A stretch of DNA of 27,777 bases. Source: Jimgerdemannia flammicorona (Eukaryota > Mucoromycota > Endogonomycetes > Endogonales > Endogonaceae). A model generated the notes under the pieces. It was not told the DNA's origin. It did not search any database and saw nothing but the letters and a program-made list of their open reading frames with translations. The DNA lies in the NCBI GenBank assembly GCA_003990745.1, contig RBNI01000699.1, forward strand, positions 1-27,777, in the 5' to 3' direction. Within the stretch, counting starts at the first letter, position 1; each line of letters begins with the position of its first letter. This document shows positions 3,001 through 27,324 of the stretch, piece after piece. The position numbers and the translations under genes are program-made.

Positions 3001-3342
3001 TCTCTCACCCCTAACCACAGGGCAGTAGCAAGAGCCAACTCTCACTGACTCCCACCCCGGCCTCTGCCAATCTCCCCAGACCAAGCAATCACCCCAGCTC
3101 CTAACACTTGCCAAGTCTCCTCTACCCTTCCTCACCAGAATTGCCACTTTTCCAAACCAAGCAGCGGCCCCACCCCCTTCCCTAGTCCACTCCACCCTAT
3201 CATCCTCATCCTCACACCTCACATCCTGTAGTAAAAAGAGGTCCACCTCTAATCCCTTGAGCCAAGTAAAAATGTTCTTATGCCATCCAGATCCCCACAA
3301 CCTATTCACATTCAAAGAGAAAATGGTAGTTGTACTGTTCAT
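1..3342 (-). pseudogene. LINE-1 ORF2: endonuclease / reverse transcriptase / zinc motif, eight premature stops, partial
   Basis: This is the LINE replicase, which nicks target DNA and reverse-transcribes the element RNA from the nick. The start is the ATG at 3342 (MNSTT), identical in position to LINE-2; an in-frame ATG at 3369 adds nine residues. Domains in order are: an apurinic-type endonuclease (EEP fold) with LNVN near the start, LLQDVRCE, GGDFNMV (about 2919-2939) and SDHW (about 2659-2670); the RT with GFIGGRLI, GRGVPQGDPLSPILY and catalytic FADD (1222-1233); a thumb/connection region rich in Trp; and a C-terminal zf-RVT-like motif, CEEC (163-174) followed by HWLGEC. No RNase H is visible. 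In-frame stops are at 2371, 2086, 1468, 1282, 610, 358, 319 and 241 (lowest coordinate of each), with no frameshift. The frame is still open at position 1 and by comparison with LINE-2 should run ~320 bp further. Confidence 0.9.
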
Positions 3343-3372
3343 AGGAATAATGTTAGATAATGATCCCATCCT

Positions 3373-5400: not shown

Positions 5401-5549
5401 TTGTATAGTACCTTTTCTCCGAGTTGCATTGAAAACCATTGCTTGAAGTTTGTGTAACGTGAATTATACCAGAGAAAGGTGGCATGGATCCTGACCTCTG
5501 ATGATGAAGCCTCCATAGTCCTGAACATTCTGCTCTAAGTCTCTTAGTT

Positions 5550-5684
5550 ATACTGAATAATACCAACACTGGCATTCTGATGTACATAATACTGAATAAT
5601 ACCAGTACTGGCATTCTGATGTAATACTGAATAATGCCAGTACTGGTATTCTGATATAATATTGAATTATATCAGCATCTTGAA
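5550..5684 (+). repeat. ~35-bp tandem repeats in LTR, four units
   Basis: Four degenerate units of about 35-39 bp follow the pattern ATACTGAATTATGCCAGCAC then TGGCATTCTGATRTA. Each unit is centred on a palindrome, TGCCAG-CA-CTGGCA in its best form. The array sits between the end of ORF3 and the TATA box, where U3 enhancers or protein-binding sites would be expected. The function is inferred. Confidence 0.7.
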
Positions 5685-5804
5685 CCTGTACAACCATCAG
5701 TGCTGACTCTGGAACTTAGCAGTTTTTCCTGTCCTGGTATTTTATTTTAGTTATTGGAATTTATATTTAGCTTTATATCTTAGCAACCATTGAATTATAT
5801 TTTG

Positions 5805-5837
5805 TATAAATACCCCACTTATTTCCTCTGAAATAAA
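5805..5837 (+). promoter_or_regulatory. LTR core promoter and poly-A signal (Gypsy-I 5' LTR)
   Basis: TATAAATA at 5805-5812 is followed by AATAAA at 5832-5837. Both are conserved at the same spacing in the other two LTRs. The TATA box would place the transcription start (U3/R border) a few tens of bases downstream. Confidence 0.6.
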
Positions 5838-6042
5838 GTCAGTTCCAGTTCACTTATACACAATCTCTTGCAAGCAATCTAAGAGATAACAAGATAGTTA
5901 AAGATAAGAAGTTTGAGGACTATAAGACCTTGGAAAGGCACTTCAATAAGAACTTGCTTATAACAAACTTAAGTTAGTCTAAGAAGATATATCTTGAAGA
6001 GAATCTGGCATATTTGAAGGACTCAGTGACTACTATGTGACA

Positions 6043-6162
6043 ACTTAGTGCCCATTGGCTGGTGATTCAAGATGAATCCCTCACTTTCAAGCTGAAAAAT
6101 GAACAATCTCCACAACAACTACCCTGACTATAAGAGTCACCCCTGTAAGAATTCAAGATAAG
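6043..6162 (+). other. Gypsy-I leader, expected primer-binding region
   Basis: This is non-coding sequence between the LTR end and the gag start. The same leader follows the LTR at 17435. A tRNA primer-binding site should start within a few bases of 6043, but the sequence acttagtgcccattggctgg has no clear TGG at the junction. The first TGG is at 6056-6058. Either the site is mutated or another priming mode is used; I cannot name the primer. Confidence 0.4.
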
Positions 6163-7491
6163 ATGGAAATGCACCCCCTCATATTCTATAGATATACTAC
6201 TGAAGAGTCAATCCTGACCTTCATTGAAGACTTTGAACAATTTGCCACCATACGAGCTCTTAGTGTGGATGCACAATTGGCCCTTCTACCAGTCAGCCTC
6301 AGAGGACCTGCCAGAGATAAGTTCAATACAGCTACTATTGCTGATAATAGTGTAGCCAAACTTGCCAACATGAAGGCCTTCCTTAGAACAACATACTATA
6401 CTGAAGAGATCAAGCAAGCACTCAAGAATTAACTCAATACTATCTACTAGGGACTTAGTAAAGATCTCAACTCATTCTATACCTGAATCTGTCACCAGAT
6501 TGTCTTAGCTGGCTATGATGATGCCCTCAAGGAACAAATAGCAAATTCAACCTTCCTTAAAGGAGTTCACTCTGAAATTGCTCTAGCAATCCAGTCTACC
6601 CCAGCTGTACTGACCCTTGATCAGAAAGTGGTCTTTGTATAGAGATATTAGACTACTAGACACCCTGCTGAATACTCAATAGAGAAAATAACTGGTATCA
6701 AGATAGAGCCATCAAAGCCAACTAGTATTATACCTGCTATAGTTGTAAACAGACAACTAACCCCACCTACCCCCAAGGCAGCCAAAGCTGACCCAGTAGA
6801 GGGACTTGCCAAGCAGTTTGCCGAAATGACTGTACACCTTAGTGATATTGTTAGAGAAGTCCAAAGCACCAACAGGAGACCAGTGCAGAGATTTGCAGCT
6901 GCTACAGAAGAATGCAATATTATATACTTCAGGTGTAGAGAAGAAGGCCACTATGTAAAGAATTGCATAACTGAAACAAGACACAAAGCCCAACTAAGCA
7001 ATACTAGCAGAACTAGAGAACAAACCAATATAGTAGTCTTTGAGGAGATTAGTGACACTGATGATGAAGAATACTATGAGGAGCTCGAATTCTACCCTAC
7101 TACTGAAGGTACTAGAATCCAGTCCAAGCTCTATGATAAGAAGAGTAACAGTAAGCCAGTTGGAAGACCAAAGAAGACTTCAGCTATCACAATTTAAAGC
7201 AAAACCTAACCTGAGAAGATTGATCAAGATATGGAATTAGATGAAGCTGCCCACCAAATCATTGAAGGCACTACTCTAGTCTCAGGAGAAAGTGAAAACA
7301 AGAAGGAACAGAAGCTGTGCAAGACCAAGATCCACCAGTATGATATCTATAAGGATCTCAAGGAACAGAAGGTCAATGCTACTTTTGGACAGCTAGCCGA
7401 AGTCCCTGCCTTCAGACAGCAGTTGAGAGTAGGACTTGCAACTACTGCCAAGAATCAAGAGTACAAGATTGTAGAAGCTCACAATGCATAG
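6163..7491 (+). pseudogene. gag: Gypsy-I gag (capsid/nucleocapsid), several premature stops
   Basis: This is the structural protein that would form the virus-like particle and bind element RNA. The start ATG at 6163 (MEMHPLIFY) follows the leader. The first ~210 codons are a retrotransposon-gag-like capsid region; the FLRTTYYTEEIKQAL stretch and a later GYDD..LKEQI stretch are typical. Next comes a basic Pro/Lys-rich linker, then a zinc knuckle at 6925-6966 reading YFRC-REEGH-YVKNC. The family pattern is CX2CX4HX4C; here the first Cys is Tyr in both Gypsy copies. After the knuckle come an acidic patch (SDTDDEEYYEE) and a Lys-rich tail. Stops at 6430, 6448, 6487 and others, such as 7195, fall where Gypsy-II reads Gln. 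The frame continues into protease without a clear gag stop, so gag-pol was probably one frame. Confidence 0.75.
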
Positions 7492-8310
7492 GAAGAATCT
7501 GAAAACTCAGGTGAAGAATCTGAAGACCAGTGCAAGACATCAGCCTATACTCCATGTCAGATTGAAGACTGTATCTTTGATACCATCATTGATACTGATG
7601 CTGGAGGATACCTTATGAGTAAGAAGGCAATTGACTGCCTAGGCTAGGATATTGAAGAATCCACCAAGATGGTCTATATTATAGCAGATAGTACACAAGC
7701 TATCTCTCTTGGCAAAATCTGAGAAGTCCCCATCAAGATAGGAGGAGCTACCATCTCAATAGATGTGATTATTACAAGTACCACCAACTATGACATCCTT
7801 ATTGGCAATCAATGACTTTACAAGGCCAAGGCCATCATTGACCTCAATGCCCAGAAGATGCAGATCAACTATAGAGAAAGGAAGGTACAAGTCTCTATCA
7901 ATGTCCACAAAGGAGTTCTATCAGACATGGAGGAAGAAGATGAAGAGGACACAGAGGTCTTCATGTACTCGGTGAACAAGAACAAGAACAAGACACCTAA
8001 ACTCATGGATGAGCAGTGGTACAACAAGATCATTGATGACTATACCCCTCAAGGAAGATACCCCCATGGTACTAGGATGTACTGCTCTGAACACCTGAAT
8101 GACTGCTGGTCCTATATCAGTGAAGTCAAGAAAATCCACTAACAGAAACATGAGCAAGAAGCTGCTGAAGCAAAAAGGAAAGTTGAAGAAGATGACCAGC
8201 CCCCAGAGCTTCAAGCTGACAGTGACAATAAGGAGGAACAAGAATCAGACATCATCCTCAAGGTCAAGAAGTTTCACCCCAAAGCCAAGATCCTAGAATA
8301 CAAGACTGAA
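7492..8310 (+). pseudogene. Gypsy-I aspartic protease and spacer
   Basis: This is the retropepsin-like aspartic protease that would mature the polyprotein. The fold is recognised by CIFDTIIDTDAGG (active-site block, 7591-7602), and later NYDILIGNQ with LYKAKAIIDL, the usual C-terminal signature of Ty3-type proteases. The canonical triad is Asp-Thr/Ser-Gly; here it reads Asp-Thr-Asp, a Gly-to-Asp change explained by one G-to-A, shared with Gypsy-II. Downstream (~7900-8310) is a linker of unknown role with KNKNKTPKL, EQWYNKIID and a charged EEDDQPPEL stretch. In-frame stops in this segment include W-to-stop in the LGWD and NQWL motifs. Confidence 0.8.
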
Positions 8311-8728
8311 GGAGCTATAGGAATAGACCTTACCAGCATTCAAGATACTACCCTCGAACCACAGACCACCACCCTACCTTAGCACTGGAATTGGAGTCAA
8401 GTTGTCAGAAAACTATGCCAGAATTATCAAGACCAGGAGCAGTCTGACCAAAAGCAAAATCTCAGTTAAAGGAGGAGTAATTGACCCTAATTACACTGGC
8501 AAGATCTTCCTCATAGTCAGAAATCACAACCCTACCACCCCATTCGAAATCAAGAAGCATGACAGGATTGGCCAGATGCTGATTCACAAAATCAAGAAAC
8601 CCAAGATCACTGAAGCCATCAAACTCATCAAGATCAAGAGAGGAGAACAAGACTTTGGATCTACTAGAAGAGGAGCCTATGCCACCACCAAGATTGCTAA
8701 ACTTGAGCACAAAAAAGACAAGGACTAG
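8311..8728 (+). pseudogene. Gypsy-I dUTPase domain inside pol, one frameshift
   Basis: dUTPase hydrolyses dUTP to dUMP and pyrophosphate, which keeps uracil out of newly made cDNA. All five motifs of the trimeric family are visible. Motif 1 is AIGIDL (8314-8331). Motif 2 is RSSL (8435-8446). Motif 3 is GVIDPNYTG (8474-8500) with its catalytic Asp. Motif 4 is DRIGQML. Motif 5 is RGEQDFGST (8639-8665), where the family and Gypsy-II have Gly-Phe-Gly. From motif 1 to motif 5 is about 118 codons, a normal core length. One extra base near 8376, absent from Gypsy-II, moves the frame by +1, so motif 1 is in one frame and motifs 2-5 in the next. The domain sits between protease and RT. That differs from betaretroviruses (before protease) and non-primate lentiviruses (after RNase H). 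Confidence 0.87.
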
Positions 8729-10189
8729 AACAAGCATACATATACTATTGGAGAAAACTTTCCACTGAAAGAATAACTTCTCAAGATCCTGCATCAGAAT
8801 GAAGGAGTACTTGCTACAGACTTCAGGGATATCTACAATCAAGAACCCAAGTACTACCATGAAGTTGACACTAGTGATATCAAGCCCATCTATCAGAAAG
8901 CCAGACCCATACCACCTGCCTATAGAGAATGGCTGTGAGCAGAACTCAAGGAAATGGAAGAAGCCAGAATCATCAAACATGCTATCAGTCCCTGGGCTTC
9001 ACCCATTGTTCTTATCCCAAAGAAAGGAAGCAAGTCTGGAGAGTTTGCACCAAGACTCTGCATTGACTACAGGAAGCTCAATACTATCACCAAGAAGAAT
9101 AGGCAGCTCTTGCCAAATATTCAAGAAATACTTACTACCCTTAGAAGTGAAGCCAAATACTACACTACCTTAGATCTATTCTTAGGCTTCCATCAGATTG
9201 GTCTCACTCAAGATGCCAGTGAGAAATCAGCCTTCATCATACCTGATACCACCTATATCTATCTGTGAATACTATTTGGAATGTGCAATGCCCCAGCAAG
9301 TTTTCAGTAAATGATGAACAGAGTCTTTAACAATGAGATTGGAAAATGGCTCTTTATATATGTCAATGATGTAATCATCTTCAGCAACACTGCATGGGAA
9401 TATGTCAATCACATACAGCTAGCCCTCAAGAAGCTCAAGGAGCATGGCCTTTACATCAAGCCCAAGAAATGCAAGTTTGTAGCTCAAGAAATTGCCTATC
9501 TAGGACACCTTATCAACCAGACTGGAATCCATACAGACTCTATGAAGATTGAGGCTATTGCAGCCTACCCAAGACTCAGAATAACCACAGAAGTCCATGC
9601 CTTCCTTGGACTGACCAGATACTACAGAAGATTCATCAAAGGATACTCTAATATTGCAGCACTTATCTACGAGCTACTGAAGAAGGAAACCAAATTCAAA
9701 TGGACCAAGGAATACCAAGAAACCTTCAATGAACTCAAGACCAGGTTGACCCAAGTACCTATTCTCAGAAGACCAGATTAGAATCTAGAATTCATCCTGC
9801 AGACAGATGCAAGTGCTATAGGATTTGGAGCAGTTCTAGCTCAGAAGAAAGATGGATATAAATATATCATCTTCTATGCAAGCTAAGGTACCTGTGGAGC
9901 AGAACAAAACTATGAGTCATGCAAGCTTGAATGCTTAGCAGTAGTTTGGGCAGTAGACAAGTTCCACTACTACCTAGTTGGGAAATACTTTACCATTCAA
10001 ACAGACCATTCCACTCTTATCTGGCTATTCTACACTCTGAACCCCAAAGGAATATATGTCAGATAGATCTACAGGCTGCAAGAGTATGACTGGATTGTCA
10101 AGCACCACTCAGGAAGAACCAACACCAATGCTGATGCACTCTCAAGGATACTCTGAAATACCCCCATCAAGATTACTCAACATGAATAA
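8729..10189 (+). pseudogene. pol: Gypsy-I reverse transcriptase and RNase H
   Basis: This is the RNA-dependent DNA polymerase with its RNase H, in one frame (second codon phase). RT landmarks are KARPIPPAYRE at the entry, SPWASPIVLIPKK, LCIDYRKLN, TTLDLFLGFHQI, FGMCNAPASFQ, the catalytic box YVNDVIIF (9359-9370) and YLGHLI. The catalytic YVDD box has become YVND, a single G-to-A; Gypsy-II keeps YIDD. RNase H landmarks are LQTDASAIGFGAVLAQ, NYESCKLECLAVVWA, TDHSTL and TNTNADALSR, so its acidic residues are in place. Stops include 8726, TGA in REWL-stop-AEL, TGA in YIYL-stop-ILFG, TAA in YAS-stop and the TAA at 10187-10189 that ends the frame. The last is shared with Gypsy-II and overlaps the integrase frame. 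Confidence 0.93.
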
Positions 10190-11558
10190 GGAGCTATACT
10201 ATGGATTAATTAGCTATCTTGGGCAGTAGAAGATACCCAACCACCTCAAACCCTGGACAATCACCATCATCAACCAGACTTGGAAACAGTTTGAACTAGA
10301 CAACACTATACTCAGAAAAGAAGGAAAGCTAGTAATACCCAAACACAAGAAGTATCAAGTAATGAAGGAAGTATATGAAATATATATGACAAGACAAGAA
10401 GAACCATGTGGTGGCCCAAGATGGAAGAAGACCTGCACCAATTTGTCAAAGGGTGTAATAAGTGCCAAAAACAGAAATAAGATCAGTAAGACCAGGTACT
10501 CAGATTATCAAGAATTGAGCCTATCTCCTTCCACCACATTGCAATGGATATCATTGGGCCACTGCCAGTAATACTATCAGAAAACCACTATATTATAGTT
10601 ATTGTAGACCTCTTTACCAAATGGATAGAAGCAGGAGCATTACAAGAAGCCAATGCCCTCTCTATAGCTAACTTCCTGTACCAAGAAATCATCTGCCACT
10701 ACAAGACACCAAAGCAAATCACAACAGACCATAGCACAGAATTTGTCAATGGATTCCATGAGATAATATATCAGAAATACAAGATCCAGCACATCAAGAC
10801 CACCATATACCACTCTCAAGGAAATGGACAGACAGAGAGAACTAACAAGACCCTCAAGAACATCCTGGCGAAGATCTCAGAGACATATGAGAATTGGGAT
10901 AATTATCTCCCAACTGCCCTCTCTGTCTTACGAGATATACAATCACAGAGCACACACTTTACCCCAAGAGAACTGCTCTTCAGAGAAGAAGATTCTGATA
11001 GAACCTCAGCCATAAATCTAGATCTAACTTGGAAATAGGTTGATGCAGAAATCTGGAGACTACACCAAATCAGGATGAAGGCTGAAGATTACATTATCAA
11101 GTCATAAGTGCTGATAAGAAAGAATGCAGAAAAGAATCACAAGACCCTAGAACTCATCCAAATTGGAGAAAAGGTCCTACTGTATCAAAATATGATAGAA
11201 GTCTCATGGTCATGAAAACTGGAGCCCAAATGGAAAGGATTCTTCTATGTGCAAGATATCAAGGGAACTACCTTCTGGCTTAGAAAAATCTCAGGAACCA
11301 TACTGCCTACTATAGTACATAGGAACAGACTCAAGAAGTACCATAAACCTATACAAGAGAAGCAAAATGTAATGACTACCTGTGAGGTTCTAGTATGCGA
11401 ATCATAACAGCATGTTCTGTGACCAGCAGACTATCTGTCTGGACCATTCTCTAAGAGATATGGTACCAGCAACTACTCATCTGTAAGACTTTTGAAGCTA
11501 GAGGAGTTCGAACCATCAACTGATTGATCAAGATCAGAATCAGGCCCTTGCTCTATAT
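10182..11558 (+). pseudogene. Gypsy-I integrase (DD35E) with GPY/F-like C-terminus
   Basis: This is the integrase that would insert element cDNA. The N-terminal part (from ATG at 10182) reads in the frame +1 to RT/RNase H; a private two-base AT expansion near 10385 returns it to the RT frame. The zinc-binding region retains TMWWPKM and CNKCQKQK (Cys-X2-Cys); the His pair is not clear. The catalytic core is well kept: Asp at 10547 (AMDIIGPLP), Asp at 10727 (TTDHSTEF) and Glu at 10835 (GNGQTERTN). There are 35 residues between the last two, the classic DD35E. The C-terminal module WKGFFYV...FWLR...HRNRLKKYH (about 11230-11345) matches the Ty3 GPY/F module. No chromodomain is seen after it. Several stops interrupt it, for example two near 10480 and others at 11036 and 11105. 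Confidence 0.88.
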
Positions 11559-11709
11559 GAAGAGAGCAACTCTTCACTATTACACCAAAATACAAAGGGA
11601 AGATACCAGCCCATAAATATTACTTTTGACCCCTTGCCAGAGGTTATGGGATCAGCAAATTTTTCAGGACTGGACCAATGAATAAGGATGCTCAAGAAAA
11701 TCCTTATTC
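11559..11709 (+). other. Untranslated or degraded tail of the Gypsy-I internal region
   Basis: About 150 bp lie between the end of recognisable integrase and the polypurine tract. I see no conserved domain. Short open stretches exist in more than one frame, so the true end of pol cannot be set. Confidence 0.4.
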
Positions 11710-11719
11710 AGGAGGAAGA
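11710..11719 (+). other. Polypurine tract
   Basis: AGGAGGAAGA lies immediately before the TGTAACAG start of the 3' LTR. This is the expected position and composition for the plus-strand priming site of an LTR retrotransposon. It is one of the reasons for placing the LTR start at 11720. Confidence 0.7.
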
Positions 11720-11961
11720 TGTAACAGTGACCCCAGAATAATGACATTAGCACAGGAGATAGCCTTTTCTCACAAGCCACCAGATCAGAGCACAAGAAGA
11801 TTATACAGTATATAAGATGAGTAATGATGACCAACTGTGAGTCATTGTGACCATAGTTCAGATATCTTGAGGAATATAAAAGAAGGATCAAGGAACTACA
11901 GTAGCAGCAACCAACAAGACCCACCAATCCCAAAATAGCTCAAAGACTTACCACAAACAAA

Positions 11962-12778
11962 ATGCCTACTGCTCACCAAATCTTGAGGTCAAGGAACCAC
12001 TAAGGCATCTCAGTTGAAGAAAGAATGTTCCAAGACATTAGAAGAGCTATGAGGACTCACTCAAGAAGGACTTCTAGTGTTAACCTGGGTACTAGTGACT
12101 CTTATCATTATATCCTCTACTGCTATGAAATGGAAACAAGGATCACCATTGCTACTGAATGTCTCTAAATATGGTAGGAGTATGAAATAAGAAACCTCCT
12201 CTGCTGGGAGTTCCCACAGGCCAGCACTCAAGAGCTACAAGATGCCACTCCCATAGATATATGTATGTAAAACAAGGACAGCTAAGAAGATCCATCAGAT
12301 CTTCAGGCATGCACTATGGTTGATCCCCAACTTGAAGTATATTAGAGTCTCAGACTTCAGAGACCTATCATCTCACAATATCAATGCACTAGAAGCCAGG
12401 GTGGCTACAGAAGCTCAGTCCACTATCACTCTCAATAGTGATGAAGTAGAAGACTTCTAGCATCTTATCTTTCAGGACAACTCAGACCAATTTCTATAAG
12501 GATTGATCTTAGTATTCTAAGACCCAAGCATCTAGGTTAGACCTTCCCAAGACTCCATATTTGTTCTCTATTTTGTGGAAGAGAACCTCATAGACTGGAG
12601 AGCCCCTGATTTCCCTGCCATTAAACATGATGATATCATCAGTGATGATGTCATCCTACACGACATATGTGAAATGCATGACCTATGCAATGACGATGAA
12701 TTTGTAGACCTCATCTCCTTTGAAGACATCCTGACCTCTGATGATGAAGCCCCTATGGTCCTGAATATTCTGCTTTAA
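11962..12778 (+). pseudogene. ORF3 in the Gypsy-I 3' LTR, function unknown
   Basis: A reading frame lies entirely within U3 of the LTR, from ATG at 11962 (MPTAHQIL) to TAA at 12776-12778. The same frame exists in the other complete LTR (16091-16933), and the last codons remain at 5488-5538. I do not recognise the product. The N-terminal part is basic (RSRNH, RRAMRTHSRR), the middle has RHALWLIPNL and IRVSDFRDL, and the C-terminal ~70 residues are strongly acidic (HDDIISDD, FEDILTSDDE), ending VLNILL. No signal peptide, membrane segment or zinc motif is visible, so it does not look like an envelope gene. Stops are at 12001, 12166, 12175, 12458, 12497, 12518 and 12533. A TGTA duplication near 12262 shifts the frame. 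The longest clean stretch is the acidic C-terminal 67 codons from 12575. Confidence 0.55.
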
Positions 12779-12788
12779 GTCTCTTGGT

Positions 12789-12920
12789 TACACTGAATAA
12801 TACCAGCACTGGCATTCTGATGTAATACTGAATTATGCCAGCATTGGCATTCTGATATAATACTGAATAATGCCAGCACCAGTATTCTGATGTGATACTG
12901 AATTATACCAGCATCCTGAA
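12789..12920 (+). repeat. ~35-bp tandem repeats in the 3' LTR of Gypsy-I
   Basis: Four units start at the end of ORF3, each with an ACTGAATWATRCCAGC core followed by WTGGCATTCTGAT. The first units retain the CCAGCACTGG palindrome core. The period is about 35 bp. They lie 120-250 bp upstream of the TATA box. Confidence 0.7.
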
Positions 12921-13040
12921 CCTATATAACCATCAGTGCTGACCCTAAAACTTAGCAGTTTTTTCTATCCTGGCATTTTATTTTAGTTATTGGAATTTAT
13001 ATTTAGCTATATATCTTAGCAACTATTGAATTATATTTTG

Positions 13041-13073
13041 TATAAATACCCCTCTTATTTCCTCTGAAATAAA
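13041..13073 (+). promoter_or_regulatory. LTR TATA box and poly-A signal (Gypsy-I 3' LTR)
   Basis: TATAAATA is at 13041-13048 and AATAAA at 13068-13073, with the same spacing as the other LTR copies. The 3' LTR copy would act mainly in 3' end formation. Confidence 0.6.
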
Positions 13074-13278
13074 GTCAGTTTTGGTTCACTTATATACAAT
13101 CTCTTGCAAACAATCTAAGAGATAACAAAACAGTTAAAGATAAGAAGTTTGAAGACTATAAGATCTTGGAAAGGCACTCCAATAAGAACTTGCTTATAAC
13201 AAACTTGAGTTAGTCTAAGAAGATATACCTTGAAGAGAATCTGGCATATTTGAAGGACTCAGCAAACACTACATGACA

Positions 13279-15848: not shown

Positions 15849-16090
15849 TATAATGGTGACCCCAGAATAATGACATCAGCCCAGAAGACAGCCTTTCCTT
15901 ATAAGCTACCAGATCAAAGTACAAGGAGATCATATAGCATACAAGATGAGCAATGATGACCAAATATGAGTCATTGTGACCACAGTATGGGTATCTTGAG
16001 GAATATAAAAGAAGGATCAAGAAACCATAGTAACAGCAACCAATAAGACTCACCAATTCCAAAATAGCTCAAAGACTTACTACAAATGAA

Positions 16091-16933
16091 ATACCTACTG
16101 CCTGCCAAACCTCAAGGTCAAGAAACCACTAAGGTACCTCAGTTGAAGAAAGGATGTTCTAAGACATCAGAAGAGCCATGAGGACCTATACAAGAAGGAC
16201 TCCTAGTGTCAACCTGGGTACTGCAGAACCTTATCACTTTATTCCCTACTGTTATGAAATGGAAACAAGGATCACTATTATTACTGAATATCTCTAAATG
16301 TGGCAGAAGTATGAGATAAGAAACCTTCTCTGCCAGGAGTTCCTACAGGTCAGTACTTAAGAGCTACAAGATGCCATTCCCATAGATATATGCAAAATAA
16401 GGACAGCTAAGAAGATCTATCAGATCTTCAGGCATGTACTATGGTTGATCCCCAACTTGGAGTATATTAGAGTCTCAGACTTCAGAGATCTGTCAGCCTA
16501 CCATATCAATATACTAGAAGCCAGAGTGGCTACAGAAGTCTAGTCTACTATCACCCTCAATAGTGATGAAGTAGAAGACTTCTGGCATCCCATCCTCCAG
16601 GACAACTCAGACCAATTTCTACAAGGATTGATCTCAGTATTCCAAGGCCCAAGCATCTAGGTTAGACCTCCCCAAGACCCCACATTTGTCCCCTATTTTG
16701 TAGAAGAGAACCTCATAGACTGGAGAGCCCCAGACATCCTTGTTCCTGCTACTGCCGAATGTGATGATATTATTAGCAATGATGTTATCCCGCATGACAT
16801 ATATGAGACATGCAATATATATAAAACATATGACCTATGTGACAACAATGAATTTGCAGACCTCATCTCCTTTGAAGACATTCTAACCTCTGATGAGGAT
16901 GAAGCCCCTATGGTCTTGAACATTCTGCTTTAA
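16091..16933 (+). pseudogene. ORF3 in the Gypsy-II 5' LTR, function unknown, no frameshift
   Basis: This is the better-preserved copy of the LTR reading frame: 281 codons in a single frame from 16091 (ATA where Gypsy-I has ATG) to TAA at 16931-16933. Premature stops are at 16130, 16160, 16295, 16358, 16541 and 16658. Of these, 16130, 16295 and 16658 are also stops in the Gypsy-I copy. Recognisable blocks are VEERMF, RRAMRTYTRRTPSVNLG, YCYEMETRITI, AKKIYQIFRHVLWLIPNLEY, DEVEDFW, FVEENLIDWRAPD and an acidic end FEDILTSDEDEAPMVLNILL. The C-terminal region has about ten more residues than in Gypsy-I (a Tyr/Cys-rich insert around 16800-16830). No homologue is recognised. Position in U3 recalls LTR-encoded accessory genes of some retroviruses, but no sequence link is implied. 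Confidence 0.55.
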
Positions 16934-16943
16934 AGTCCTTTGG

Positions 16944-17070
16944 TAATACTGAATTATGCCAGCATTAGTATTCTAATATAATACTGAATTATGCCAGCAC
17001 TGGCATTCTAATATAATACTGAATTATTCCAGCACCATTTTTCTATACTACTGAAATTATATCAGCATCC
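16944..17070 (+). repeat. ~35-bp tandem repeats in the Gypsy-II LTR
   Basis: There are three clear units and one weak unit. The second unit keeps the full palindrome TGCCAGCACTGGCA. The position relative to ORF3 and the TATA box is the same as in the other LTRs. Confidence 0.7.
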
Positions 17071-17194
17071 TGAATCTATACAACTATCAGTGCCGACCCT
17101 GGAACTTAGTAGTTTTTTCTGTTCTGGCATTTTATTTTAGTTATTGAAATTTATATTTAGCTTTATATCTTAGTAACTATTGAATTATATTTTG

Positions 17195-17227
17195 TATAAA
17201 TATCCCTCTTATTTCCTCTGAAATAAA
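17195..17227 (+). promoter_or_regulatory. LTR TATA box and poly-A signal (Gypsy-II 5' LTR)
   Basis: TATAAATA is at 17195-17202 and AATAAA at 17222-17227, conserved with the other two LTRs. This would be the transcription start region of Gypsy-II. Confidence 0.6.
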
Positions 17228-17434
17228 GTCAGTCTACTCAGTGCAATATACACACTTTCTTGCAAGCAATCTAAGAGATAACAAGACAGTTTAAAGATAA
17301 GAAGTTTGAGAACTATAAGATCTTGGAAAGGTACTCCAATAAGAACTTACTTATAACAAACTTTAGTTAGTCTAAGAGATATACCTTGAAGAGAATCTGG
17401 TATATTTGAAGGACTCAGCAATTACTACATGACA

Positions 17435-17560
17435 ACTTAGTGCTTATTGGCTGGTGATTCAAGACAAATCCCTCACTTTTAAGCTGAAAATCAAATAACT
17501 ACCACAACAACTACTCTGACTACAAGAGTCACCCCTGCAAGAATTCAAGACAAGATAGAA
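17435..17560 (+). other. Gypsy-II leader
   Basis: This non-coding leader is homologous to 6043-6162. It starts acttagtgcttattggctgg, so the presumed primer-binding region again lacks a recognisable tRNA match. Confidence 0.4.
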
Positions 17561-18911
17561 ATGTATCCCCCCACATTCTATAGATATACTACTGAAGAGT
17601 CAATCCTGACCTTCATTGAAGACTTTGAACAATTTGCTGTCATATGAGCTCTTGGTGTGGATGTACAATTGGCCCTTCTACCAGTCAGCCTCATAGGACC
17701 TGCCAGAGACAAGTTCAATGCAGTCACCATTGCTGATAATGGTACAGCCAAACTTGCTAACATGAAGGCCTTCCTCAGAACAATATACTATACTGAAGAG
17801 ATCAAGCAAGCTCTCAAGGATCAACTCAATACTATTTGCCAGGGACTCAGTAAAGATTCCAACTCATTCTATACCCAAATCTGTCACCAGATTGTCTTGG
17901 CTGGCTATGATGACCACCTCAAGGAACAAATAGCAGATTCAACCTTCCTCAAAGGAATTCACTCTGAAATTGCTCTAGAAATCTGGTCTACCCCAGCTAT
18001 ACTGATCCTTGATCAGAAAGTAGTCTTTGTACAGAGATATTGGACTGTCAGATACTCTGCCAAACACTCAATGGAGAAAATAACTGGCATCAAGATAGAG
18101 CCATCAAAGCTAACTAGTATCATACCCACTACAGTTGTAAACAGACAACCAACCCCACTTACCCCCAAGGCAGCCAAAGCTGACCCAGTGGAGGAACTTT
18201 TCAAGTAGTTTGCTGAGATAACTACACACCTTGGTGATGTTGTTAGAGAAGTCTGAAGTGCCAACAGGAGACTAGTGCAGAGATTTGCAGCTGCTACAGA
18301 AGAATGCAATATTATATACTTCAGATGTAGAGAAGAAGGCCACTATGTAAAGAATTGCATGACTGAAACAAGACACAAAGCCCAATTAAGCAATGCTAGC
18401 AGAACCAGAGAACAAACCAATGCAGTAGTCATCAAGGAGATTAGTGACACTGATGATGAAGAATACTATGAGGAGCTCAAATTCTACCCTACTATGTACT
18501 AAAGGTACCAGAACCTGGTCCAAGCCCTATGATAAGAAGAGCAACAGCAAGCTAGTTGGAAGACCAAAGAAGACCCCAGCTGTCACTATTCAAAGCAAGA
18601 CTCAATCTGAGGAGATTGATCAAGATATGGAGTTAGATGAAGCTGCTCACCAAATCATTAAAGGTACTACTCCAATCTCGAGAAAGTAAAAGCAAGAAGA
18701 AATAGAAGCTGCACAAGACCAAGATCCACTAGTATAATATCTACAAGGACCTCAAGGAACAGAAGGTCAATGCTACTTTTAGACAGCTAGCTAAAGTCCC
18801 TGCCTTCAGACAGTAGTTGAGAGTAGGACTTGCAACTACTGCCAAGAATCAAGAGTACAAGATTGTAGAAGCTTACAATACATAGAAATCTGAAGACCAG
18901 CACAAGACATC
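17561..18911 (+). pseudogene. gag: Gypsy-II gag, frame broken by small indels
   Basis: This is the homologue of Gypsy-I gag. ATG at 17561 aligns with the second Met of that copy. A TGA at 17645 replaces the Arg codon CGA of Gypsy-I. A 183-codon clean stretch follows (17657-18208), which keeps Gln where Gypsy-I has stops (for example KDQLNTICQGLSKD). The zinc knuckle (about 18319-18360) again reads YFRC-REEGH-YVKNC with Tyr in place of the first Cys. A four-base TGTA insertion near 18497 and a two-base loss near 18679 change the frame twice. The net result is the phase used after LINE-2. The segment ends at the LINE-2 target site 18895-18911. Confidence 0.75.
18895..18911 (+). repeat. LINE-2 target-site duplication, left copy
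   Basis: The 17-bp sequence GACCAGCACAAGACATC is repeated exactly at 24655-24671. Gypsy-I has a single uninterrupted equivalent near 7523. The pair proves that LINE-2 inserted into an existing Gypsy-II. Confidence 0.95.
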
Positions 18912-18935
18912 TTTTTTTTTTTTTTTTTTTTTTTT
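18912..18935 (-). other. LINE-2 poly-A tail (24 T on + strand)
   Basis: An uninterrupted run of 24 T lies directly against the left target duplication. It is the poly-A tail left by target-primed reverse transcription. Its purity suggests a fairly recent insertion. Confidence 0.9.
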
Positions 18936-18996
18936 ATAGTCACTTGGACTCCCTTTATTACCCGAATCTATAATAATATTAATACAGCCTAAGCCT
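18936..18996 (-). other. LINE-2 3' UTR
   Basis: About 60 bp lie between the ORF2 stop and the poly-A tail. The region is A/T-richer than the coding part. No AATAAA was identified with confidence. Confidence 0.5.
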
Positions 18997-21900
18997 TCAA
19001 CCTATCCCACAGGGCCCCCCCCCTTCCTTAGTTCCTACAAATGACACCCCATCCACCTTCACCACCACCCTACCACCACTCTTTGCTACAATCCTCCTTA
19101 CTAGTTCCCTATGTTTTCCCCCCTTGGTGCCCCACCCAATCCACCATGCCTTGAAGAGCTCTAACATCAGCTCCTCTCATCTCACTATCCTCAGGCTCAC
19201 CGGTCTCTGGGGTCCCTCCTCAAACATGCTCTGCCAGTGTTCTGCGAGCCCCACCCAAAATGCGACAGCCTAGCCAACCATCAGCCACTCATTTCCCACC
19301 CCCCCCACCAGCCTTGACTGCAGTGCCGCCCACTGCCCACCCACCTTAGGGTTCGGCACAGACACTCCCAGCCTCACCCCAACAACCTTCCAAAAATTCT
19401 CCAGACTCTCGCACTCCCCCAGCCAATGTTCAGGTATCTGTACCACCCCTCCCTCCTGCCCTACATTATGACACTCCTCACAGTCAAAGACTCTGCCATC
19501 CACCAGATGTCCAGTCCTAAAGTTCAGCATCATATTCTGATGCAACAGCCTCCACCATGCTACCCAGAATTTTGGCAGGAGCCACCTTGACACAACCTTG
19601 AACCAAGACCATACTCCTGCCCAGTCCTACCTCTTCCCAATCCCAGCCCCTTGCCAGGCCTTCGGCCAAAGGTCCTGCCCCAGACCCCTCAGGCACTCCA
19701 TACCCTCCTCTAAGCAGAAGTCCTCAACCAGATTCTCTCCCAATAAGAGCCTGTCTCACCTCCACATCTCCAGACCCCAGTCCTCATCCCCTTCAGTACC
19801 TTGCCAACAGATCTCAATATGGTGTACCCCATCTATTACTCCCCACCAGAATTCTTTGTATCGCATCCTCTGGCTGCCATCCAAGGCCACCAAGGACAGT
19901 AGATCCCCTGAGCCACCCCTTGGTGACACCCTCGTCTCCCACAAACACTGCATAAGGGGCACCCATTCTCCTCCTCTCAACTCACTAGCCCTCTTCATCC
20001 ACCATGCCCTCAAGCAGAGTAGCCTCTTAGGAAAGTCCACCAGGCCAAGGCCTCCATGATCCACAGGAAGTGCTAATACCTCCCAATCAACCTGACTCTG
20101 GCGTCCAGCCCAGAGCCAAGAGTGGGCCATCTTGAGAAGCTTTTTGACCACCCACTTAGGAAAATCCAAATGGTAGCCCAGATACCAAAGCTTTGGCATC
20201 CAATACACATTCAGAACAGTTACCCTTCCCGCCAGTGACACCTGTCTACCACCCCAACTCATCAGTACTGTCCCCCATTCTACCAGTTTGCACTCCCACC
20301 ACTCCTTGGGAAGTAAAGAGCCATACACCAAGAAATAAATACCCAAGTACCATACCACTCCTCCCGCCGGGACAATTGTTCCAATGACGTCCCCCTCTAT
20401 GACTCCTTCTCCAAGGACCATTGTCTCACACTTGTACCAGTTGAGTTTCACCCCAGAGCATATCTCATACCACTCGACTATCTCCTTGAGCATAGCCACA
20501 TCTACCACCAAGCCCAACCCGACCACCATATCATCTGCAAAGGCCCCCACCTTCCAATTGACCCCCAAGATATTCAGTCCACCGACTCTGTGCCAGATCC
20601 AATCCAACAATGGCTCCAGGGCAAAAGCATAAAGGATAGGTGACAGCGGATCCCCTTGAGGCACCCCCCTTCCCAAGGGGAAAGAGGCCCCCCTGTGACC
20701 ATTCACCAGAATTGCAGCCCTACTTCCTTCCAGCAATCCAATAAGTGACCGATACATGCCCACTGGTACCCCAATGTACTCCAGTATCTTCTCTAACCAT
20801 ACTCTCCGCACCCTATCATAGGCCTTCTCCTGGTCCAGAAATACCAAACAGCCATCCACCCCTGCAGCCCTAGCACCTTCAATGATGCCGTGAATCCATG
20901 CCATGCCATCTTGGATCAGTCGGCCTCCAACAAAGCCTCACTGCTCCTTCCCTATCACCTGCTGTACCACACCCTGTAACCTCGCCACCAGAATTTTGGT
21001 GACCAACTTCCGGTCCATATCCAGCAGCATGATTGGCCTCCAATTTTTCCAATCCTCTTTAAGCCCTTTGTCCTTGTATAGCAGGGAAACCAGCCCCAAC
21101 TGCTGCCCTCCAATCCACTCCCCGGTACTGATGACTGCTTCACACATTAGTGACATCTCCTCCAAAGCCTCCTCTACAGATGCCATACGTTTCCAAAAGT
21201 CCCAAGGCAGACCATCCTCTCCAGGCGCCATTCCTAGGGATGTCAATGCCAGAACTTGAAGGATCTCCTCGCCCAAAACCAGTCGGCCAAGATCCCCCAA
21301 CCCTGCTGCTGGATTTGGGTGCTAATCTTCCAGATGCCACTCAATATCCTGCGCCCCCTCCCCTCCCTCCTCCTCACTCTAGAGGTTACTCCAGTGGGCA
21401 CTCAGCTGGCCAAGGATCCCCTGCATGTCTAATACCATTTCTCCCTCATCATTAAGGACTCCTTCCCACTGGTGTCTTGCTCCCCTAGCATGAAGGAGAT
21501 GGGACAGAAGCCTTGTAGGTCGTTCTCCTTCTTCCAGTCCTTGCCACCTTAACCTGGCCGCCATAGCCTGAGCCTGCACTGCTTCCTCCTTCCTCAACAA
21601 ATCCTGTAATTCCACTACTTCCAACTTAGCCTGCTTAGCCTTCCAGTCCAATACTTCCTCCTCCTCCAATAGCCCAGCCCAATTCAGAAGTAGTCTTTCT
21701 AGTCTCCTAGATGCCCATCGGACTTATCTCCTCCACTGAGCCCCTCGCTCCTTCCCAACTACCCCCCAGTACCTCTGAGCTTCAGATTTCAGTCTACACC
21801 ACCTATCTCCAATCCCCATCCCTGCTTGCCTCCACTTATTAATCTTGGATCATACCTCTGCCACCCACTCATTCCACAGATCCATCTCATCCAACAGCGA

Positions 21901-22650
21901 AGAGTTCAGATGCCAATGTCCTGGTCCCTCTCCACTCCCTCCAAACCTCCCACCTCTCCGAATACCCCAGTGATCTGACCAAGGGCACCACTCGACCTCC
22001 ATCGTCTCCCAAACTGTATATCCCCAGCACTCAGCAGTCAGAACCCAATCAATCCTAGTACCCAGCCCTCCCACCCAGTGCGTATATAGATGTCAATCCC
22101 CATCCTGAAGTCGCATGGCATCCACCAGTGAGCTGAGCCGTTCCACCTCTTCCCAGTCCTCCAATCCACCACTCCTTCCTGCCATACCCTGTCCCCCATC
22201 AGTTCTATCCAGTCTACTCTCCCATATCATATTAAAATCACCCCTCAGACAATCCACCCCAGCCTCAACCAAGAGCCCAGAATCCTGCAGATCTCCAATC
22301 TATGCCACTTGGGTCCCCCTCTCAGCTGGGCAGTAACAAGATCCCACCACAATTGAGTTCCATCCAGGCCTCCACCATATCCCCCACACTAATCTACTAC
22401 CCCAATGTCCAGTGTCCGCAATGTCCCCTTTCCCCTTCCTAACCAGGATTCCCACTTTACCCTGCCAAACTGCCTCCCCCCCCCACTCTCTAGTCCATTC
22501 TAGTCCATCTTCCTCCCCCTCACACCGTACATCCTGAAGTAAGAAGATATCTGCCTCCAGTTTCTTCAGCCATTCAAAAATCATACATTGCCTCTTAGTC
22601 CCCCTAAGCCCATTGACGTTCATAGAAAAAATGTTGGTTGTACTATTCAT
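18997..22650 (-). pseudogene. LINE-2 ORF2: endonuclease / reverse transcriptase / zinc motif, eleven premature stops
   Basis: This is the LINE replicase, 1218 codons in one frame from ATG at 22650 (MNSTTNIF) to TGA at 18997-18999. The EEP endonuclease shows MNVNGLRG, LLQDVRCE, GDFNMIWE and WSDHWG. The RT shows EEILQVLAL..APGEDGLPWDFW, GFVGGRLIQDG, GRGVPQGDPLSPILY and catalytic FADD (20530-20541), inside a clean 382-codon block (20904-19756). The C-terminal zinc motif is CEEC (19471-19482) then HWLGEC. About 90 further codons follow the stop at 19270, including WWIGWGTKGGKHRELVRR, which sets the true end. No RNase H is visible. Premature stops (lowest coordinate) are 22300, 22093, 21850, 21724, 21379, 21322, 20938, 19756, 19627, 19270 and 19177. 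Where LINE-1 can be compared, several replace Trp or Arg. Confidence 0.92.
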
Positions 22651-22684
22651 AGTGAAATATATGATAATGTTGAAATCTCCACAT

Positions 22685-24571
22685 CTACAATTCCATGCTC
22701 ACTTCCTCTCCAGCCAGATCCAGGTTCCATTCTGCCACAATCTCAACTTCCACATTTTGCTGTTCATCCAGAGCTGCTAACAATTCCACACAGTCCTCAC
22801 CATCCACCATCTCCATTGCTGCCCGATGCTCCTTGCACACCACCTGCCACTTTTCCAGTCTCTTCTGCGGCCCCCACAGATAAGCTGCCCTTTCATTAGC
22901 GATACCCAAAAGCATCGCCTCCCTTGCCTCAGTGACCTCATACTCCTCTGCCTCCAGAAGAGCTGCCATCATCTCATCTCTCAACTTCCTCACGACCTCC
23001 TCCCCTCACAGCACTCACCCCCAGAATTCCTCACTGATCACCCAGAAGTCGATCTCGCCCAGTTCCTCAGCTGCCACATTTTGCAGTACCCTCAATAGCC
23101 ACTTCTCCCCTCCAACTACCTCTGCTGCCTGCGCCAAATCTGCCTCCCCTTCCTTCCTCTCCTCAGTTCGCACAGACTCATCCCAACCATCCTCAGACAC
23201 ATCCTCCAGCTCCCTCTCTCCCACCTTGGGAACACCATACTGGATCATATTATCTTCTACCATCGCTATGTCCACTACAGCCTCCTCTGGCCTCTGTCCC
23301 CCACTCTCCTTCGCCTTCCCCCCTTGCTGCCCCTCCTCCACCCAGATGCTAGCACTTGCTCCCTTGCCCTCCTCCATAGCCCCGGCCCTTTTACCCCCAT
23401 CCAAACTGGCCAACAAATCCTTCTGTAGCTGTCTCCCCTTTACCTTCTCCCAAAGCACCTTGTTCATTTGCACCTTCTTGCCCTCGATCACCTCCACTAC
23501 CGTCCTAGCCTCGTAAGCCCTCCAAGCCCTCTGCCTCCTCTCTACAGCCCCAGCTAGGTCCTTGAGTGCCTCCAGCAGGTCCTCCTCCTCTTCCTCTGAC
23601 CCCTTCACCCTCAAAACCTTGCACTCCACCGGGCCCCACTTCAATGCCACTGGCCAATCCCTAGCCTTCCCTGTATTCTCCATCCCAAACAGCCTCAACT
23701 GGACATCCACATCACCTGTCCTGAGCTCAGTCCCCTCCCATACCCTGAATCCAATGTCGACCACCTCACCATACTCCTTTACCACATCTGTGACCAGCCT
23801 CCTTGCCTCCTCCTTCTTCACCATCGGCAGGTCTGCAATCACCAGGTGAACCACTCAGGGATCCCAATGCATACACCTCGCCATCGGCACCGAAATCCCT
23901 CCAATCACCACCCCCTTCTCCACTGCCTCCAGTAGCAAACCCTCCTCTTCAAACCCCACCTCGACTGCCTCCAGCTTCTTCAAAAACTTTACCAAGACTA
24001 CTCCTTTCACCTCACTAGCCAGTAGCCCCAGCACTATCTTTGCCATCACTGCCAAGCCACGGAAGCACAGCGTGATGGCGAATTCCGACTGAGATTTTTT
24101 GAGTAACAGGGCCGCCACTAGGCCCGTCACACTATCAGCCAGGTCCCCGGGTCTCACACCACTCCCCTATCCAGGTCCCCCATCAGCTGTCACATCTGAA
24201 TTTTTTTCCAGATTGCCCATCACACCACCATCAACAGTCACTGCCTCAGCCACTACACCTCCAGCCCCACTATGCTGACCCCCCAGAGGAGAGGCCTCCT
24301 TATTACTCGAAATAGCAGCCACCTTCCCCAGCTCCAGTCAGCCATCCAGTCCAGTCGCCTGCTTCCCCATCCTGACCTTATCCGCAAAGGTCATCCTCTC
24401 TCTCCCATATTGCTTTGCACCTCCTCTGCCACCACCTCTGGCCCCATGTCCTCTTATCGAAGCACTCAGCAAGCCAAGACCAGCCCCTTGACCCCTCTCC
24501 ACATATTGCCAGTCAAAGGCACTGGGGCTCCCCTGCCCAGTATGCTCACCAGAATGCTTGTTGCTCACCAT
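22685..24571 (-). pseudogene. LINE-2 ORF1 (RNA-binding/gag-like protein), five premature stops
   Basis: The first ORF of LINE-2 is 629 codons, from ATG at 24571 (MVSNKHSGEH) to the stop at 22685. An in-frame ATG at 24604 would add 11 residues, but LINE-1 supports the inner one. It has a Gly-rich N-terminus with MTFADKV, a central folded part with FLKKLEAVEVGFEEEG and DVVKEYGEVVDIGFRVWE (RRM-like by inference), and a Glu/Ala-rich C-terminal part. No zinc knuckle is seen. Stops are at 24338, 24167, 23855, 23015 and 23006, with no frameshift. The 34-bp spacer to ORF2 and the different frame contrast with LINE-1, where the two ORFs are in the same frame. Confidence 0.75.
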
Positions 24572-24654
24572 CTTGATAGTACCAATACTTGAAGATGTTG
24601 TCAAAAGTGTTGTCTGAGTCTTGTGTCACCTGAATGGTACTGGTGAAAGATCCT

Positions 24655-24671
24655 GACCAGCACAAGACATC
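24655..24671 (+). repeat. LINE-2 target-site duplication, right copy
   Basis: This is an exact repeat of GACCAGCACAAGACATC at 18895-18911. Gypsy-II coding sequence resumes here in phase. Confidence 0.95.
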
Positions 24672-25446
24672 AGCCTATACTCCATATCAGATTGAAGATT
24701 GTATCTTTGATACCATCATTGATACTGATGCTAGAGGATGTCTCATAAGCAAGAAGGCAATTGACCACCTAGGCTGGGACATTGAAGAGTCTACCAAGAT
24801 GGTCTATATTACAGTAAATGGTATATGAGCTACCCTCCTTGGCAAAATCCAAGAAGTCCCCTTCAAGATAGGAGAAGCTACCATCTCAGTAGATGTGATT
24901 GTTACAAGTATCACCAACTATGACATCCTCATTGGCAACCAATGGCTTCACAAGGCCAAGGCCATCATTGACCTCAATGCCCAGAAGATGCAGATCAACT
25001 ATAGAGGAAGAAAGGTACAAGTCTCTATTAATGTCCATAAAGGAGTCCTACCCGACATAGAGAAAGGAGATGAAGAGGACATAGAAGTCTTCATGTACTC
25101 AGTAAACAAGAACAAGAATAAGTACAAGACACCCAAGCTCACAGATGAGCAGTGGTACAACAAGATCATTGATGGCTATACCCCTTAAGGAAGATGCCCC
25201 CATGGTACTAGAATATACTGCTCTGAACACCTGAATGACTGCTGGTCCTGTATCAGTGAAGTCAGGAAAATCTGCCAACAGAAATATGAGCAAGAAGTCA
25301 CCAAAGCAAAAAGGAAAGCTGAAGAAGATGACCAGCCCCCTGAGCTTCAAGCTAACAATGATGATGAGGAGGAATAAGAACCAGATATCACCCTCAAGAT
25401 CAAGAAGTTTCACTCTGAAGTCAAGATCCCAGAATATAAGACTGAA
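24655..25446 (+). pseudogene. Gypsy-II aspartic protease and spacer
   Basis: This is the homologue of the Gypsy-I protease. The active-site block IDTDARG is at about 24718-24738, again with Asp in place of the usual Gly of Asp-Thr-Gly. The C-terminal signature NYDILIGNQWLHKAKAIIDL is intact here, with Trp where Gypsy-I has a stop. Stops are at 24826 (TGA), 25186 (TAA, Gln in Gypsy-I) and 25375 (TAA). The charged linker before dUTPase is conserved with Gypsy-I, including EQWYNKIID and CSEHLNDCWS. Confidence 0.8.
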
Positions 25447-25860
25447 GGAGCCATAGGAATAGACCTTACCAGCATTCAAGATGCTACCCTTGAACCACAG
25501 ACCACCACCCTACTTGGTACTAGAATTGGAGTCAAGCTACCAGAGAACTATGTCAGAATTATCAAGACCAGAAGCAGTCTGACCAAAAGTAAAATCTCTG
25601 TTGAAAAAGGAGTAATTGACCCTAATTACACTGGCAAGATCTTCCTCATAGTCAGGAATCACAACCCCATCACCCCATTCAAAGTCAAGAAGTATGACAG
25701 GATTGGCCAGATGCTGATTTACGAAATCAAGAAGCCCAAGATCATTGAAGCCATCAAACTCATCAAGACTAAGAGAGGAGAATAAGGCTTTGGATCTACT
25801 GAAAGAGGAGCCTATACCACTATCAATATTACCAAACTTGAGCACAAGAAAGACAGGGAC
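25447..25860 (+). pseudogene. Gypsy-II dUTPase domain inside pol, single frame
   Basis: This is the better copy of the dUTPase, with all motifs in one frame. Motif 1 is AIGIDL (25450-25467), motif 2 RSSL (25570-25581), motif 3 GVIDPNYTG with the catalytic Asp (25609-25635) and motif 4 DRIGQML (25696-25716). Motif 5 is RGE-stop-GFGST (25774-25800), with one TAA at 25783-25785 where Gypsy-I reads Gln. The Phe of motif 5, which stacks on uracil in the family, is present in both copies. Only this single stop interrupts the domain core. It lies between protease and RT exactly as in Gypsy-I, so the arrangement belongs to the element family and is not a chance insertion. Confidence 0.88.
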
Positions 25861-27324
25861 CAGAATAAGCACACATATACCATTAGAGAAAACTTTTCCC
25901 TGAAAGAACAACTTCTTAAGATCCTGTATCAGAATAAAGGAGTACTTGCTATAAACTTCAGGGATATCCATAATCAAGAACCCAAGTACTATTACAAAGT
26001 TGACACTAATGATACCAAGCCCATCTACCAGAAAGCCAGACCTATACCACCTGCCTACAGAGAATAGCTGTGAGCAAAACTCAAGAAAATAGAAGAAGCT
26101 GGAATTATTAAGCAAGCTATCAGTCCCTAGGCTTCATCTATTGTCCTTACTCTGAAGAAAGGAAACAAGCCTGGAGAGTTTGCACCAAGACTCTGTATTG
26201 ACTACAGGAAGCTCAATGCTATCACCAAGAAGGATAGGCAGCCCTTGCCAAATATTCAAGAAATCCTTACCACCCTTGGAAGTAAAGCCAAATACTACAC
26301 CACCTTAGATCTGTTCTCAGACTTCTATCAGATTGATCTCACTCAAGATACTAGTGAGAAATCAGCCTTCATCACATCTGATGCCATCTATATCTATCTG
26401 TGAATACTATTTGGAATGTGCAATGCCCCAGCAAGTTTCCAGCGAATTATGAACAGAGTCTTCAGCAATGAGATTGGAAAATGGCTCTTTGTCTATATTG
26501 ATGATATAATCATCTTCAGCAATACTGTACAGAAATATGTCAACCATATATAGCTAGCCCTCAAGAAGCTCAAAGAGCATGGCCTCTACATCAAGCCCAA
26601 GAAATATAAGTTTGCAGCTCAGGAAATTGCCTACCTAGGACACCTCATCAACCAGACTGGAATCCACATAGACTCCATAAAGATTGAGGCTGTTGCAGCC
26701 TACCCAAGACCCAGAACAACTACAGAAGTCCATGTCTTCCTTGAACTGACCAGCTATTATAAAAGATTCATCAAAGGATACTCCAATATTACAGCACTTA
26801 TCTATGAGCTACTGAAGAAGAAAACCAAATTCGAATGGACCAAAGAATGCCAAGAAATCTTCAATGAACTCAAGACCAGGTTGACCCAAGTATCTATCCT
26901 CAGAAGACCAGATTGGAACCTAAAATTCATCCTGCAGACAGATGCAAGTACTATAGGACTTAGAGCAGTCCTAGCTCAGAAGAAAGATGGATATGAATAT
27001 GTCATCTCTTATGCAAGCTGAGATACCCATGGAGCAGAACAGAACTACAAGTCATGTAAGCTCAAATGCTTAGCAGTAGTTTGAGTAGTAGACAAGTTCC
27101 ACTACTATTTAGCCAGGAAATACTTCACTGTTCAAACAGACCATTCTGCTCTTGCCTAGCTATTCCACACTCTGAACCCCAAAGGAATATATACCAGATG
27201 GATCTACAGGCTGCAAGAGTATGACTGTACTGTCAAATACTGCTTAAGAAGAACCAATATCAATACTGATGCACTCTCAAGGATACCCCAAAACACCTCT
27301 ATCAAGACTATTCAATATGAATAA
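25861..27324 (+). pseudogene. pol: Gypsy-II reverse transcriptase and RNase H
   Basis: This follows dUTPase in the same frame and ends at the TAA at 27322-27324. The RT entry KARPIPPAYRE, LCIDYRKLN, TTLDLFSDFYQIDLTQ, FGMCNAPASFQRIMNRVF and the catalytic box YIDDIIIF (26494-26505) are present, so the polymerase triad is intact. RNase H shows LQTDAST, TDHSAL and TDALSR; the KLECLA motif of Gypsy-I reads KLKCLA, losing the acidic residue. Stops shared with Gypsy-I include TGA before AKL/AEL, TGA in YIYL-stop-ILFG and the TGA/TAA in the YAS motif. Private ones include two W-to-stop changes and TAG in the YVNHI segment. No frameshift was found. Confidence 0.92.

Follow-up and report, generated by a model that had tools for sequence, protein, structure and literature searches.

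A dUTPase domain between protease and reverse transcriptase in a high-copy Ty3/Gypsy retrotransposon family

The window analysed here, a stretch of 27,777 nucleotides, contains the damaged remains of a retrotransposon Pol in which a dUTPase appears to be inserted between protease (PR) and reverse transcriptase (RT). This raises the questions of whether the domain is genuine, whether it is found at the same place in other copies and in relatives, whether the order of the domains marks a lineage, and what the element might gain from an enzyme of the nucleotide pool. As outlined below, the window holds two dead copies, A and B, of a Ty3/Gypsy family, here termed W, whose Pol consists of protease, a Cys/His linker, dUTPase, RT, RNase H and integrase.

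The dUTPase domain and its surroundings in the window

In copy B, the dUTPase domain with its motifs 1 to 5 comprises positions 25378..25821 of the forward strand. A Pfam profile search of the window revealed a match to PF00692 at 25378-25782 with 73.6 bits (E 1.6e-20, cut-off 22), so that the presence of a dUTPase within 24655-27324, as claimed in the preliminary description, was borne out. A single reading frame holds the five motifs in the right order, namely AIGIDL (25450-25467), RSSL (25570-25581), GVIDPNYTG (25609-25635), DRIGQML (25696-25716) and GFGST (25786-25800), including the catalytic Asp of motif 3 that characterises the trimeric dUTPases of PF00692. The domain is also matched by the PHROGs dUTPase profiles and, with scores below the curated cut-offs, by those of NCBIfam. 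In addition, its top sequence matches in the PDB are dUTPases, and a structural model with a mean pLDDT of 74 was aligned by Foldseek with solved dUTPases at TM-scores of mostly 0.71-0.76 over the query. The matches of motifs, profile and fold exceed chance, and the domain is confirmed as a trimeric-type dUTPase with the beta-rich dUTPase fold.

The domain had further been described as lying in frame with the flanking protease and RT. While the shared frame could be verified, the region is not an open polyprotein, since 13 in-frame stops interrupt 24655-27324; the final one is at 27322, and another, a TAA at 25783, directly precedes motif 5. Upstream of the dUTPase, likewise on the forward strand, are a protease remnant at 24672..25185 (left edge approximate; RVP_2, PF08284, E 6.6e-5 on 24829-25185) and, in the interval between protease and dUTPase, a Cys/His linker of the form WY..I.DGY.P.GRCPH..R.YC.EH...C..C at 25126..25296 (ends approximate), which has one internal stop and was aligned with the other families of the genome. 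Downstream, RT and RNase H follow on the same strand at 25990..27321 (left edge approximate; RT_RNaseH_2, E 7.5e-17 on 26554-27018) with many in-frame stops.

The 5′ part of copy B is found at a distance, with a 5′ LTR at 15856..17434 (85% identity to 11727-13278) and a gag region at 17435..18894, both on the forward strand; the gag piece matches copy A, to which positions 16880-18897 are 88% identical. Between gag and protease, copy B is cut by a LINE insertion on the reverse strand at 18895..24671 (RVT_1, E 2.2e-15 on 19759-20937, and alignment), with a poly-A that appears as a T run on the forward strand and with a 17-base target site duplication at 18895-18911 and 24655-24671. Copy B resumes past this insertion at 24655.

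Copy A, delimited on the forward strand at 5488..13278 by self-alignment and domain matches, comprises gag, protease, dUTPase, RT, RNase H and integrase together with a 3′ LTR (11727-13278) and a cut 5′ LTR (5488-6042). Over 551 sites, 46 transitions and 4 transversions separate the two LTR remnants of this copy (K2P 0.099). Its dUTPase at 8327..8725 on the same strand matches PF00692 with 59.6 bits over profile positions 34-128 of 129 and is preceded by a frame break. The shared Pol of the two copies is 88% identical, and as the frame of copy A is also broken by stops and frame breaks, both copies are dead. Protease, RT, RNase H and then integrase in copy A and in further loci, together with the LTRs, identify W as a Ty3/Gypsy family. 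Two LINEs reside on the reverse strand of the window (1-5480 and 18936-24640), which are 67-69% identical in their aligned parts and both carry an endonuclease (PF03372) and an RT (PF00078); one of them splits copy B and the other abuts the cut LTR of copy A.

Family W in the genome and amongst its relatives

In the 134.8 Mb assembly there are at least 150 matches to the window dUTPase and at least 150 to the window RT piece, and the copy number of W is thus high. In 12 loci anchored on the dUTPase, of which the window is one, the protease lies upstream in every case (one protease being partial) and RT downstream in ten; in L036 and L040, the roughly 1.5 kb that follow the dUTPase yielded no RT match. 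Conversely, in ten of 12 loci anchored on RT, again including the window, a dUTPase precedes RT, in some of them in pieces, and the remaining two stop short of that site. Relatives devoid of the domain at this place, which would have spoken against the preliminary description, were accordingly not encountered amongst these loci. Of 29 dUTPase-RT pairs chosen by eye amongst the genome matches, the window included, 26 have a spacing of 1176 bases; the other three measure 1174, 1174 and 1166 bases. Fusions of dUTPase and RT are seen in the open frames of locus L053 and of protein P0001. A chromodomain after integrase was searched for in two pieces of damaged copies (L042:2788-3465 and a 63-aa piece from the window) with no match, and W is therefore not filed as a chromovirus.

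With respect to the host, a chitin synthase match over the full profile with 816 bits makes it very probable that the genome is fungal; because the profile (PF03142) also matches four of 14 control genomes, this assignment draws on how strong and how long the match is. Hydrophobin (PF01185) and HET (PF06985) profiles had no match in the genome in searches that disregarded introns, and both were silent in the controls, too. A dUTPase belonging to the host itself was not distinguishable from the retroelement copies.

The RT phylogeny was reconstructed from 120 rows and from 52 of these, consisting of 22 dUTPase carriers, three Nudix carriers, five named rows and the 22 best-ranked others; both trees are without P0001, which has a partial RT, and without P0005 and P0006, which were left out by hand. 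The same set of 18 rows including W is recovered in both trees (support 100/93 in the 52-row tree, SH-aLRT 96 in the 120-row tree). The RTs of this clade are about 44-53% identical to that of W, and 16 of the 18 proteins have a dUTPase, while in the two rows without it just 20 and 51 residues precede RT. In ten dUTPase-bearing relatives that were scanned, the order PR-dUTPase-RT was found in six and dUTPase-RT with no protease match in four. Inside the W clade, a protease before the dUTPase is directly seen in P0007, P0016 and P0020 as well as in the window family. However, P0029, P0051 and P0052 have the same order and fall outside the clade, and the order is therefore not exclusive to it. 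The earlier suggestion that the order may define a lineage thus holds in the sense that a dUTPase beside RT marks a supported RT clade and is a usable marker of a Gypsy lineage. Two plant proteins (P0002 and P0003, from Camellia sinensis) have a dUTPase following a short Cys motif.

The order had also been regarded as unusual, which could not be sustained, as it has already been published for Postia placenta (PMC2864245), bdelloid rotifers (PMC5408684) and planarians (PMC6431247). W is a further member of this known kind of PR-dUTPase-RT retrotransposons. In P. placenta, the dUTPase is described at either end of Pol (N-terminal or C-terminal) or, in PosPlaTy3-5, between PR and RT, and earlier dUTPase-bearing elements are cited there for Phanerochaete and Tuber (Novikova and Blinov 2008; Riccioni 2008, via PMC2864245). 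PosPlaTy3-5 resembles W in domain order, being a fungal Gypsy Pol with a dUTPase between PR and RT; the title of a supplement to that report refers to dUTPase domains of chromodomain-containing elements, whereas no chromodomain was detected in the two pieces of W. The bdelloid elements Juno, Vesta and TelKA are described as having dut between PR and RT and no chromodomain, in which they are similar to W, and Juno also resembles W in having an extra Zn knuckle beside dut. Their host, however, is an animal, and the knuckle of Juno follows dut, whereas the linker of W precedes the dUTPase (PMC5408684). By citation, the bdelloid report extends the order to fungi, and the planarian report to fungi and rotifers.

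Two domain orders around a similar linker

W is not the only Gypsy family of this genome to carry a dUTPase. In the families X, X2, Y and V the order, read by eye, is gag-dUTPase-protease-RT, with the dUTPase upstream of the protease as described for betaretroviruses (PMC4531489, PMC2427051). The families W and Z differ from betaretroviruses in that the protease precedes the dUTPase, and also in host and RT lineage. Z (L056, L059; C2093) and V (L057; C1991) were found via RNase H and not via the dUTPase. The RTs of X and Y form a separate clade (100/99 in the 52-row tree); the RT piece of V is closest to Y, and its RNase H piece scores slightly higher with P0057 (122 bits) than with Y (119 bits).

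A Cys/His linker with a GRCPH core follows the protease and precedes the dUTPase in W; in V and Y, it is the dUTPase that comes before the linker and the protease after it. W and V share 44.6% identity in this linker (E 1e-21 when five sequences were compared), and weaker forms are present in the W-clade relatives P0020, P0014 and P0010. Between the two groups, protease and dUTPase hence swap sides of a similar linker, and the reversed order may have come about by module exchange or by repeated gain. In the dUTPase tree, which is weak, W is separated, though not with strong support, from the majority of its RT clade and falls with cellular-type rows, and V groups with Z (94/83) despite their differing domain orders, which argues against RT and dUTPase simply having descended together. 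Topology tests rejected neither a single clade of all Gypsy dUTPases (p-AU 0.23) nor a single clade of the dUTPases of the W clade (p-AU 0.21), and since the dUTPase trees are weak as well, no claim is made for either a single or a repeated gain. As the genome houses five or more Gypsy families that carry a dUTPase, and these show two domain orders, it is well suited for asking how often retroelements gain, lose and move the enzyme, and also whether dUTP is a limiting factor for reverse transcription in hosts other than animals.

A Nudix domain with an intact Nudix box is located before the protease in three of the 120 listed RT relatives (P0030, P0050 and P0073). These three form one RT clade in the 52-row tree, and the 120-row tree places them in a set of four rows whose remaining member, P0097, is listed without a Nudix match. 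Amongst the papers listed by searches of an open library, no title or abstract opening mentions a Nudix domain in the Pol of LTR retrotransposons. Such Gypsy proteins with Nudix instead of dUTPase, and the families with reversed order around a similar linker, are what is added here to the elements already in print, and the Nudix-bearing relatives would extend the question of gain and loss to other enzymes of the nucleotide pool.

Constraint, proposed role and decay

For 21 aligned W copies (210 pairs; L036, L040, L048 and L052, which had no aligned piece of 1000 bases, are not part of the set), the dUTPase has a median pairwise dN/dS of 0.27 and RT one of 0.26; the linker reaches 0.40 and the short end of the protease 0.13, with the apparent dN being lowered by the choice of the copies by protein similarity. 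Pooled pN/pS values for dUTPase and RT, respectively, are 0.29 and 0.25 in nine copies chosen via RT, and 0.26 and 0.33 in nine chosen via the dUTPase; between the two window copies they are higher (0.46 and 0.36). The Asp and Tyr of motif 3 are retained in all 21 copies, the residue before the Tyr being N in both window copies and in L033 and D in the other copies. L047 has a damaged motif 4 and L051 an altered one, and changes in motif 5 affect six of the 21 copies (winA, L051, L039, L045, L043 and L030). The similar dN/dS of dUTPase and RT together with the conservation of motif 3 indicates that an intact dUTPase mattered to the source elements about as much as an intact RT did; since then, many of the copies have decayed.

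What this dUTPase might do can be proposed by analogy with retroviruses (PMC2427051, PMC4531489). Retroviral dUTPase is described as a part of Gag-Pol that should be located close to RT in the particle; for non-primate lentiviruses, the enzyme is reported to matter in non-dividing cells (PMC2427051). We consider it probable that the dUTPase of working W copies was likewise made within Gag-Pol; the protease would have cut it out, the particle would have carried it next to RT, and there it would have split dUTP to dUMP, with the new cDNA taking up less uracil. A lowering of dUTP during cDNA synthesis is the most likely activity of the W enzyme on this analogy. Such an activity may have been of benefit in cells with high dUTP, and high dUTP or uracil repair in the host cell, again judged from retroviruses (PMC2427051), is a plausible explanation for the domain.

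An alternative hypothesis, which we regard as rather unlikely, assumes that the domain keeps its fold but acts as a binding or processing partner, e.g. of nucleic acid or the Cys/His linker, and hydrolyses dUTP hardly or not at all. It would fit the conserved linker adjoining the dUTPase, the altered dUTPases discussed for BIV and betaretroviruses (PMC4531489), and the Phe that replaces the Tyr of motif 3 in X and X2 (L010, L004, L055 and L054), in V (L057) and in five of the 14 database proteins that showed the motif pattern out of 19 tried (P0011, P0015, P0016, P0022 and P0031). However, both Asp and Tyr are intact throughout the aligned copies of W itself, and the Asp is kept in the other aligned families of the genome with the exception of the decayed L054.

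It is more doubtful still, and in our view improbable, that the domain is a passenger that was captured once and has been carried along because it is harmless. Gypsy relatives without a dUTPase are indeed common, PF00692 being absent from 101 of the 120 listed RT relatives, 50 of which have at least 260 residues ahead of RT and hence room for it, but a passenger would be at odds with a constraint equal to that on RT, with the retention of the dUTPase throughout a clade with RT identities to W of about 44-53%, and with its occurrence in at least two RT clades. Finally, a chance match of motifs, or a stray fragment of a host dUTPase inserted beside a Gypsy element, for which nothing was found in favour, is refuted by the profile and fold matches, by the same site in both window copies and the other loci read, and by the open-frame fusions in L053 and P0001.

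As to the mode of decay, 162 of the 255 private changes amongst the W copies are C>T or G>A, and a clear neighbour bias was not seen. At shared variable sites, 50 are mixed CA/TG as compared to 214 CA/TA or TG/TA, which suggests that CpA was hit in addition to CpG. CpG has almost vanished from the window copies A and B, with an observed/expected ratio of 0.03-0.05, and the ratio falls to 0.0 in an AT-rich block (27% GC) at 13279-15850. This pattern resembles repeat-induced point mutation, yet both copies have a (CpA+TpG)/(ApC+GpT) index of 1.36-1.49, which is not low and so does not demonstrate the classical form of that process.
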